Shown here piece by piece: positions 11,656-14,265 of a stretch of DNA of 34,073 nt (position 1 is its first letter; the number at the start of each line of letters is the position of its first letter). Source of the stretch: Candidatus Obscuribacterales bacterium (GTDB taxonomy: Bacteria > Cyanobacteriota > Vampirovibrionia > Obscuribacterales > Obscuribacteraceae); NCBI GenBank assembly GCA_019748395.1, contig JAIEPM010000503.1:1-34073 (forward strand), given 5' to 3'. The position numbers were made by a program, and so were the translations under genes. The notes beneath the pieces were generated by a model. The model ran no database searches. It was not told the origin of the DNA and worked only from the letters and a program-made list of their open reading frames with translations.

Positions 11656-12210
11656 TTAAGCTTTGACTCCAAGTTTTTTGGCAACTGCGGTCAATATTTC
11701 GTGGTTCTGTTTTGTTAGATTCAGGCTATATGAAAATACAGAGCTTGTTTTCGGTGTTTTTTCAGGAAGCGGTAAAGCAAGTTTTTTTGCGATTGAACGC
11801 AAAATTTCGTTGTTGTACTCATGAAGGAAGGAATTATTGACTCCTGAACTGCCTGATTGTCCTTCGTACTCTGTCGGCAATGGTGCCTCGAGCTTTTTTG
11901 CAGCCGCGGCGTAATAAATTTGGTCGGTCAGGGCCAAAAGGCTGTTGGCGCCCAGAGAGCGGTATTTAGGGACTTTGGGCACGTAGTAATCGACGCCCAG
12001 ATGAGTGAGTACCTTTTCAATAAGTTGTTGATTGGACAAGAGGGTCTTATGGTTCTCTTCGACAAGTTCGGCGTCGGCTTTTGATACGCGAGTGGCGGAA
12101 ATTAGTTCGACCTGCTCTTTACTGTCCTCGGCCGGTGCCGACGGGCACACGGCAGAGAGCATCGCCAGCATTATTGTTGCTGCTTTTAATACTTTGCTAG
12201 GTTTTTGCAC
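11656..12210 (-). CDS. exported protein with four ~36-aa repeats, last gene of the MNIO operon
   Basis: GTG start at 12210 preceded by AAGGAGG (12224-12218) with 7-nt spacing gives MQKPSKVLKAATIMLAMLSAVCPSAPA^EDS..., a good signal peptide. ORF-track start at 12273 would overlap the MNIO gene by 77 nt. Confidence 0.7.
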   Translation of the reverse strand: MQKPSKVLKAATIMLAMLSAVCPSAPAEDSKEQVELISATRVSKADAELVEENHKTLLSNQQLIEKVLTHLGVDYYVPKVPKYRSLGANSLLALTDQIYYAAAAKKLEAPLPTEYEGQSGSSGVNNSFLHEYNNEILRSIAKKLALPLPEKTPKTSSVFSYSLNLTKQNHEILTAVAKKLGVKA

Positions 12211-13078
12211 TGCTTGTCCTCCTTGTTGTACTTTCATAGCTTGCAGAAAATGCAATTTCTTTGATCTTTTCAATTTCGGATAAAATCATCGCAAACTTGG
12301 GAAAGAGCTGATCTCTCTCAAGCAGGATTGCTCGGGCTTCCGTCTTGCGGAGCGTGTGCGCCAGCAGATCGTAAACTGGTTGAATTATTCTTGCTCCGTG
12401 CGTGTCGATAATTACAGAGCCCTGTTTCTTGTGCCCGGCGATGTGTATTTCAACAACTCGGTCTAGAGGCAGTTGATTTATAAAATCGAATGGATCGTAA
12501 TTGTGATTGAAGGCGTTGACATAGACATTATTCACGTCCAGCAATAGTCCACAGTCGGCTTGTTCAACTACTTCAGTGATGAATTCTGCCTCTGAAAACT
12601 CGCTGCCGGGCATGCGCATGTAAGATGATACATTCTCCAGCAAGAATGGAGTTTCGATAAATTCTTGAATCACTCTGATGCGTTTTACAACATGGTCTAC
12701 TGCTTCCCGGGAAAATGGAAGCGGTAGTAGATCATGGAGGCGATTTCCCTCTACGCCTGTAAAGCTCAGATGGTCGCTCCACCATGGTGCGTTGATTCTT
12801 TTCAGTAATTGCTTGAGCTTTTTAAGGTAATCAAAATCCAGTTCAGCCACATTGCCTATTGATAGCTCTATGCCATGGGGAATTAATTGGAACTCTAGTG
12901 TTCTCTCAAGATCTCTCGATTCTGTTGGACCATTGAGCAAATAATGCTCTGTGATGATTTCGAGGAAATCAATTGAGTCGCGATTGATCAGGGTTTGCTC
13001 GGCTATTTCAGTGCGAAATCCTAGTCCGACTCCCAGCTTCGGCAAGTTCTTCTTAATTGCCTGAAAACTTTCAGTCAT
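12197..13078 (-). CDS. DUF692 family multinuclear non-heme iron oxidative enzyme (MNIO; BufB/MbnB/TglH-like)
   Basis: 293 aa; LGVGLGFRTE, DFLEIITEHYL, WSDHLSF, PFLLENVSSY, LLLDVNNVYVNAFNH, EIHIAGHK, DTHGARI, LLERD. Confidence 0.9.
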   Translation of the reverse strand: MTESFQAIKKNLPKLGVGLGFRTEIAEQTLINRDSIDFLEIITEHYLLNGPTESRDLERTLEFQLIPHGIELSIGNVAELDFDYLKKLKQLLKRINAPWWSDHLSFTGVEGNRLHDLLPLPFSREAVDHVVKRIRVIQEFIETPFLLENVSSYMRMPGSEFSEAEFITEVVEQADCGLLLDVNNVYVNAFNHNYDPFDFINQLPLDRVVEIHIAGHKKQGSVIIDTHGARIIQPVYDLLAHTLRKTEARAILLERDQLFPKFAMILSEIEKIKEIAFSASYESTTRRTSSAKT

Positions 13079-13922
13079 CTGTTGTCGCCTCTGTATTCAG
13101 CGGGATGCTTCCCAGCAGGATGCCGCAGTTGTTGAACTGCCTTAGCATCTCAATAACGGAGTTTCTTGTCCGGCTTAGCTTGTCATCGGGGAGTTCTTCA
13201 ACGGCATACTGAATTAGCTCTTCGTAGCTGCTCCGCCCCGAAATCATTACTTCCAGTAGTTTGTAAGCCAATTGACCTAGTCCCTGAATTCGAGTTTCCG
13301 TCCTGTCTTTGGGATCCTGGTAAACTGCCAGGTAAAAATCACCTGCTTCATATCTGTGTTTCCGCCAGCGACCAGCGGCCGTCCTGGATGCAATCTGATG
13401 CACCGGATAGCCAAAGCGCCTGAGTTTGATTGTCGCATTCGCAACGGGTTTGTGAAGCTGTCTTTTGCTGCTTGATTTTAGATCAATGAATGACCCGCAT
13501 TCCAGAATGGATGAGTCAAGTTGAAGTTCTCGTCTCATCCATTCGTACTCGGCTAAATCAGCCAGGTATGGAAAGTCCTTGAGTTCCTCGCATTCATCAC
13601 GCAAAAACTTTGGAAAATTTGCAAGTTCGAATATTGGATTGGAAGAGGAGCTTTTGTATTTCTCCCAGTATTTTTCAACTAATCCAGTTTTGTTTTTTCC
13701 GATTACTCTCAGCGTAAGCGAATAACAATTGCGAGTAACTTGCGCCCTGCGTGTGCTGACATCTTCAAAATAAAGCTTAACTCTGTTTGGGTCCAGCTGA
13801 CTCTCAAATTCGTTGCCTAAGCCCGGTATCTGTCCGGATTTAGCATAATCTTCGAAGCCTTTTCTAGAGCCCCAGATTCCGACCATTGCTTCTTGAATTT
13901 CTTTCAGGCTTGTCAAACTCAT
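13071..13922 (-). CDS. DUF2063-like MNIO partner protein (BufC-type, putative substrate recruitment)
   Basis: RNCYSLTLR...NFPKFLRDECEELKDFPYLADLAEYEWMRRE matches the DUF2063 hallmark; overlaps the MNIO start by 8 nt (ATGACTGA). ATG at 13922; the ORF track starts at GTG 13925. Confidence 0.75.
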   Translation of the reverse strand: MSLTSLKEIQEAMVGIWGSRKGFEDYAKSGQIPGLGNEFESQLDPNRVKLYFEDVSTRRAQVTRNCYSLTLRVIGKNKTGLVEKYWEKYKSSSSNPIFELANFPKFLRDECEELKDFPYLADLAEYEWMRRELQLDSSILECGSFIDLKSSSKRQLHKPVANATIKLRRFGYPVHQIASRTAAGRWRKHRYEAGDFYLAVYQDPKDRTETRIQGLGQLAYKLLEVMISGRSSYEELIQYAVEELPDDKLSRTRNSVIEMLRQFNNCGILLGSIPLNTEATTDD

Positions 13923-13961
13923 CACCAGCTTATGTAAGCCTTGGCTATCTTATCGTCAAGC

Positions 13962-14120
13962 TCAGGACTTTCCAGTTACCGACATGCAAACACAGAAAAA
14001 CGGGGGCTTGGCGCTTGATGCAACTTTTTTCATTGCTTGGCTGCTTTTATATTCCTGAATTCCAAACATTGCCTTTGAATTCCGAGCTTTTTTGCTTGCT
14101 TTGGCACTGTTCTTTTTCAT
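13962..14120 (-). CDS. candidate RiPP precursor peptide (52 aa): MKKNSAKASKKARNSKAMFGIQEYKSSQAMKKVASSAKPPFFCVCMSVTGKS
   Basis: Not in the supplied ORF track. Minus strand GCAGGAAGGAGTATTAATAC-ATG gives a strong SD; complete ORF to TGA at 13964-13962, 39 nt before the DUF2063 ATG; C-terminal CxC. Confidence 0.65.
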   Translation of the reverse strand: MKKNSAKASKKARNSKAMFGIQEYKSSQAMKKVASSAKPPFFCVCMSVTGKS

Positions 14121-14265
14121 GTATTAATACTCCTTCCTGCTTTTTAGTCCGCAAAGTCCGATTGTATACTGGAAATGTCGGATACCGGCCCCGCTGATTT
14201 ATAGATTATAGGTTAGTTGTGGGGGCTGCGTGAGGAAACTTGAGTTCCGGATATTCCCATTATTT

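Follow-up and report, generated by a model that had tools for sequence, protein, structure and literature searches.

The 34,073-nucleotide window (the whole stretch of DNA analysed, from a Candidatus Obscuribacterales bacterium) contains an MNIO RiPP locus whose partner protein is PME-type-2-like, and a 52-residue peptide gene at its head, missed by the gene annotation, probably encodes the precursor (a probability of about 75% in our estimate). Its leader would be bound by the partner, the MNIO would oxidise one or both cysteines of a Cys-Val-Cys motif, and leader removal and export would follow. The evidence lies in the gene and its conservation, its linkage across the clade, the iron site of the MNIO, which is intact, the fold of the partner and the C39 exporters of the genome. 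With a conserved leader and a Cys-containing core, both predicted from sequence, the peptide has the form expected of the small precursor of an MNIO RiPP locus.

The peptide gene and its operon

Translation and coordinates bear out the initial annotation in its description of a 52-residue ORF (MKKNSAKASKKARNSKAMFGIQEYKSSQAMKKVASSAKPPFFCVCMSVTGKS) preceded by AAGGAG 9 nt before its ATG, with both cysteines within the final ten residues (C-terminal end CVCMSVTGKS). The proposal that this ORF comes first in the MNIO transcription unit also stands: the gene order is peptide-partner-MNIO, 36 nt separate the peptide stop codon from the partner start at 13925, the partner and MNIO genes overlap by 8 nt, and no terminator-like site was found between the peptide gene and the partner and MNIO genes. 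By inspection the peptide is basic, with no long hydrophobic stretch and no repeat. The MNIO gene is overlapped at its end by a further gene whose product is probably secreted and has no family, and which may be the fourth gene of the operon; a Pfam match to Fur_reg_FbpB in the downstream gene fell below cut-off and was set aside.

When the 304-nt gap was dinucleotide-shuffled 20,000 times, 1,414 shuffles contained an ATG ORF 52 or more codons long, 21 had such an ORF behind AGGAG, and a single shuffle had one that also carried two cysteines in its last 12 residues, by criteria set post hoc, once the ORF was known. Throughout the 34-kb window the peptide ORF is the sole ATG ORF of 40-70 aa with a Shine-Dalgarno (SD) sequence. 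Its codon score (0.056) lies between those of real gene segments (0.139 +/- 0.077) and of spurious ORFs (-0.056 +/- 0.090) and by itself does not decide the coding status of a 52-residue ORF; it is conservation among relatives that places the ORF in a family of real genes.

Table 1. Features of the window and of related loci.
Feature	Position	Strand	Basis or remark
Putative precursor peptide gene P0001, 52 aa	13962..14120	-	ORF read and homologues; ATG 14120, stop 13962
Shine-Dalgarno AAGGAG, 9 nt 5' of ATG	14130..14135	-	sequence
Conserved leader motif QEYKSSQAMKKV, residues 22-33	14022..14057	-	aligns with same-genus [KQ]ELKSSxALxK
Predicted core SAKPPFFCVCMSVTGKS	13965..14015	-	begins after degenerate GG-like site Ala34-Ser35
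Cys-Val-Cys, proposed modification site	13986..13994	-	TGT GTT TGC; resembles CVPC[LM]G
MNIO partner, 284 aa, PME-type-2-like	13071..13925	-	degenerate DUF2063 region and NGO1945_C/RRE-like domain; start GTG 13925 or ATG 13922
MNIO enzyme (PF05114), 293 aa	12197..13078	-	Pfam E 1.1e-96
Possible fourth gene of the operon	11656-12273	-	overlaps MNIO end
Tandem peptides G003A/B	G003:C9 113943-114352
Tandem peptides G002A/B	G002:C205 17911-18291
Own-genome (G000) member, PE/PPE-type or Gly-rich core	C633 L263:6586-6870	-
Own-genome (G000) member, PE/PPE-type or Gly-rich core	C587 L214:1489-1797	+
Own-genome (G000) member, PE/PPE-type or Gly-rich core	C644 L220:1333-1620	-
Own-genome (G000) member, PE/PPE-type or Gly-rich core	C45 L217:988-1275	+
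Own-genome (G000) member, PE/PPE-type or Gly-rich core	L263:8824-9174	-
Precursor, second MNIO clade	L106:3322-3645 (G002:C221)	+
Precursor, second MNIO clade	L105:3229-3609 (G003:C17)	+
Cys/Gly-rich SD-preceded ORF, 55 aa	L103:5243-5410 (G002:C80)	-	possible precursor

All nine iron ligands mapped from TglH (H71, H107, E151, D184, N187, H216, D229, H231 and E258; PMC10880893) are conserved in the window MNIO and its relatives. Among NCBIfam models the enzyme scores best with HvfB and BufB (285 and 281 bits, under the curated cut-offs of 360 and 310), while the ChrH and MbnB models reach only 67 bits against a cut-off of 600 and 55 bits against 325. The partner is HvfC-like at 68 bits, under the curated cut-off of 142. 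It passes the Pfam cut-off for NGO1945_C (29.7 bits), and the DUF2063 label given to it initially has to be withdrawn, as its score of 12.6 bits falls short of the 27.2-bit cut-off and does not make it a bona fide DUF2063 protein. Its AlphaFold model (pLDDT 89) has E values near 1e-6 in its matches to TglI (8hi7, 8hi7_A), the closest fold, and to NGO1945 (3dee); in the comparison with TglHI the partner identity is 10-11%. Fold and Pfam scores point to an RRE-containing, PME-type-2-like partner with an NGO1945/TglI fold and without the DUF2063 signature. All five partners of the window clade miss the DUF2063 cut-off, whereas all five tested partners of the same family from the paralogous MNIO clade pass it, a pattern that matches the published rule by which PME-type 2 partners, those that lack the DUF2063 signature, accompany precursors lacking a signal peptide (PMC12452194).

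Conservation of the peptide among relatives

The initial annotation had named absence of the ORF from related loci as the result that would speak against it. Querying 60 related genomes directly with the 52-residue protein did return noise only and no significant homologue; relatives were nonetheless found near the partner orthologues, by walking outward from them. The nearest of these (L049 and L050) have neither an adjacent peptide nor an MNIO and at first looked like counter-evidence, a view overturned when the loci were widened by 20 kb on each side and tandem peptide genes appeared. In G002 and G003, two genomes of the same genus, the distance between these tandem small genes and the partner orthologue is 9 and 5 kb, and the MNIO is linked neither to the partner nor to the peptides.

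The four same-genus peptides have in common a KELKxSxxL-type motif, of which the window version is QEYKSSQAMKKV, and the B copies G002B and G003B end in GCVPCLGQVKPQQ and RCVPCMGSIKPQQ. Their tails, of the form CVPC[LM]G, match the CVCM of the window peptide. The Smith-Waterman score of the window peptide against G002B is 50 (shuffle mean 23), a score that 0 of 5000 shuffles reach; the result for the score summed over all four peptides is again 0 of 5000. Between the G002 and G003 homologues pN is 0.24-0.33 and pS 0.75-0.93 (saturated); with pN well under pS, these peptides behave as selected proteins and are, by this measure, under purifying selection.

Trees of both MNIO and partner group the window with G002, G003 and two loci of genome G030 (seven-row MNIO node 92/75, partner node 100/98; L100/L113 and L101/L114 each represent one G030 locus that occurs in two collections). 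Both G030 loci have the order MNIO-partner-peptide, and their peptides are SD-preceded and end in ...GCVPCLGRVDKP and ...TTCLKCICIAYHRKN. The G030a core, GCVPCLGRV, resembles the GCVPCLGQV of G002B, and its CVPC[LM]G, like that of G002B and G003B, resembles the CVC of the window peptide. BLASTP of the window peptide against the G030 peptides gave no match, and these were used for architecture and core, not for leader homology. Across the approximately 630 kb of compared loci there are 35 distinct ATG SD-ORFs of 40-70 aa, four of which have two cysteines in the last 12 residues; the G030 peptides are two of those four. A genome-wide MNIO scan returned the G030 loci again, one further MAG of the same order and distant phyla. 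The relatives come from uncultured bacteria and their genomes are drafts (G003 70% and G030 66% complete); the comparative tests were devised in the course of the analysis. The leader/core RiPP architecture proposed from the outset draws support from the same-genus leaders and cores, the Cys-tail peptides at both other linked loci of the clade, the intact iron site and the RRE-type partner.

Several other MNIO loci were observed. The second MNIO locus of the window's own genome (L051, G000:C675), together with L052, L053 and L057, is a paralogous MNIO locus that pairs DUF2063 partners with secreted-looking, HvfA-like precursors, whose K/E-rich repeats are of the EGSCK/EKSCKKG type. In G002 and G003 a second and distant clade of MNIOs has precursors ending CLKCGRG and CVECGRG (L106 and L105, Table 1); it is similar to the ChrH-like mel system published for Melainabacteria (PMC12636315). 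Open frames, 768-858 aa long, that both the MNIO query and the partner query hit are apparent natural MNIO-partner fusions (G030:C15 and C60; G013:C5; G015:C14; G066:C104; G067:C8; G071:C18), and 5' of another G002 MNIO lies a Cys/Gly-rich ORF that is a possible precursor (GGSCSSGSGCGSSCGGGGCGGGCGGCGG).

A dispersed family of double-glycine-type leaders

A family HMM built from nine peptides, with matches listed at E up to 0.2, found matches, weak ones included, in G002 (25), G003 (11) and the own genome, G000 (4); it found none in G001 and in the other genomes of the family weak matches alone (E above 0.07). Besides the window peptide, 42 members were read out as ORFs in G000, G002 and G003, those of G000 resting on HMM searches and those of G002 and G003 lying at loci L167, L172, L200-L203 and L222-L244. 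The leader consensus is RKxLPKxKxLKNTq...GG. The cores are hypervariable and often contain cysteine (27 of 39 GG-defined cores, median length 22), which is the final residue in 11 of the 42 members. At the GG column most aligned relatives have GG or GA and the window peptide has Ala-Ser. Held out of HMM training, the window peptide scored E 0.05 in a set of 10,462 targets; three unlisted family members ranked ahead of it, every shuffle and every ORF from outside the family behind it, and it appears to be a divergent member of the family. When 38 and 8 family peptides were scanned against Pfam and NCBIfam, no family was named, PE/PPE slices aside. The family appears specific to this Obscuribacterales lineage, its leaders are of the double-glycine type, and neither database has a name for it. 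The initial view is refined accordingly in one respect: the leader looks like a double-glycine export type, with a degenerate site in this copy, and the peptide like one of a large dispersed family.

Other members in G000 carry slices of mycobacterial-type PPE or PE domains after the GG: PPE profile positions 1-59 (E 4.9e-21), 63-115 (E 1.3e-6) and 90-155 (E 1.3e-19), PE profile positions 1-39 (E 1.6e-5), and in addition a PGRS-like Gly-rich core. An apparent split of a PPE/PE domain across dispersed export peptides would be very unusual, MAG contamination and horizontal transfer being possible sources. Two of these members adjoin a PPIase, a C39 exporter and HlyD. G000 has four PF03412 matches, two of them belonging to ABC exporters about 1,015 aa long, and one C39 exporter stands beside the PPIase, HlyD and two leader-family members. 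C39 ABC exporters also occur in G002, G003 and G030; they are present in G001 too, so that their presence does not discriminate.

The dispersal of the family raises an alternative that we consider unlikely, namely that the window peptide is an unmodified or differently modified export peptide of the double-glycine family, bacteriocin- or signal-like, and that the true substrate of the MNIO pair lies elsewhere. The 42 further ORFs, many without cysteine, and the C39 exporter adjoining own-genome members favour it, as does the by-eye check of the large ORFs listed near the inspected dispersed copies, in which no RiPP modification enzyme was recognised. It has to contend, however, with the recurrence of CVC/CVPC-type tails beside this MNIO clade across genera despite differing leaders, and with the window copy being the only member found in G000 that has a core cysteine and the only one beside an MNIO. 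A regulatory upstream ORF, acting on the partner-MNIO operon by translational coupling or Cys-responsive attenuation, would suit a first gene 36 nt from a partner start without an obvious SD, but is very improbable: related peptides follow the partner in G030 or lie kilobases away in G002 and G003, where attenuation is impossible, amino-acid conservation falls in leader and core, and no terminator-like site follows the ORF. That the ORF is spurious and its features coincidental, as the failed BLAST search and intermediate codon score would allow, is scarcely credible given the shuffle tests, the leader homology and the clade-wide recurrence of SD-led Cys-tail ORFs.

Proposed maturation and comparison with known systems

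In the favoured reading of the peptide as an MNIO RiPP precursor, residues ~1-35 would form the leader, with the motif of Table 1, and the last ~17 residues the core, a boundary that we infer from the family alignment. By analogy with TglHI and MbnBC, in which the partner reads the leader (PMC10880893, PMC8888699), the RRE-like C-terminal domain of the partner would bind the leader and bring the core to the MNIO, and the di/tri-iron centre of the enzyme would oxidise one or both cysteines of the CVC motif. Leader removal would come next, the probable agent being an ABC exporter of the C39 type with its gene at another place in the genome, and the product, which may act in metal binding, signalling or antagonism, would be exported. 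C39 cleavage appears to be the weakest step for the window copy, because it has Ala-Ser where its relatives have Gly-Gly. Against the reading as a whole stand the many leader-family cores without cysteine, so that the leader alone does not imply an MNIO substrate. The empty direct search, the modest hold-out E value, the unlinked MNIO of G002 and G003, the Ala-Ser site and the intermediate codon score also weigh against it.

The closest published counterparts are adjamnio-7 and its kin with PME-type-2 partners (PMC12452194), which likewise have a Cys motif, no Sec signal (in the window peptide, by inspection) and a partner that is NGO1945/TglI-like yet lacks the DUF2063 signature; compared with their published description, the window differs in its double-glycine-type leader family, its peptide-partner-MNIO order and its dispersed paralogues, which are the new elements here. 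Assignment to the bufferins or HvfABC/oxazolin systems was rejected, although the MNIO scores best there and the partner is HvfC-like, all under curated cut-offs: the peptide has no Sec signal by inspection and neither buf Cys motifs nor EGKCG repeats, and the gene order is not A-B-C. TglA/TglHI (pearlins) have the closest partner fold, the same iron ligands and a short leader peptide modified at a near-C-terminal cysteine, but the window cysteines are genetically encoded, 8 and 10 positions from the end (inclusive), and not appended at the C-terminus. ChrH/MelH systems, including those of Melainabacteria (PMC12636315), have an MNIO that acts on a two-Cys C-terminal motif and come from the same broad lineage; a ChrH-like identity (chryseobasin, MelA) was nevertheless rejected, there being no CPxCGxG end, a separate MNIO clade and a ChrH score far below its cut-off. 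The MbnB score likewise excluded methanobactin (MbnABC).

A possible but doubtful extension is a distributed system, in which one MNIO-partner pair modifies many dispersed leader-family precursors in trans. Strong leader-family matches are confined to G000, G002 and G003, the genus members with this MNIO/partner clade, and G001, the fourth genus member, has neither. The cysteines found in 27 of the 39 GG-defined cores, and at the very end of 11 of the 42 members, would also agree with it. The distributed system fits this presence and absence, but the genomes are few and many cores lack cysteine. In prochlorosins (ProcA/ProcM), too, the precursors are many and dispersed, sharing a conserved GG-type leader ahead of hypervariable cores; the leader is different here and the window system uses an MNIO. 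If true, the distributed system would give a cyanobacterial lineage without photosynthesis its own counterpart, not based on lanthipeptides, of the combinatorial biosynthesis of prochlorosins.

The precursors of minor MNIO clades are elusive, being short, unannotated and poorly conserved, and their identification is not straightforward (PMC12452194). For one such clade the locus offers a defined precursor together with a likely core and a motif that is a candidate for recognition. It also brings to light a large peptide family of Obscuribacterales that has no name; a single MNIO pair may make its products, or they may serve C39 export.
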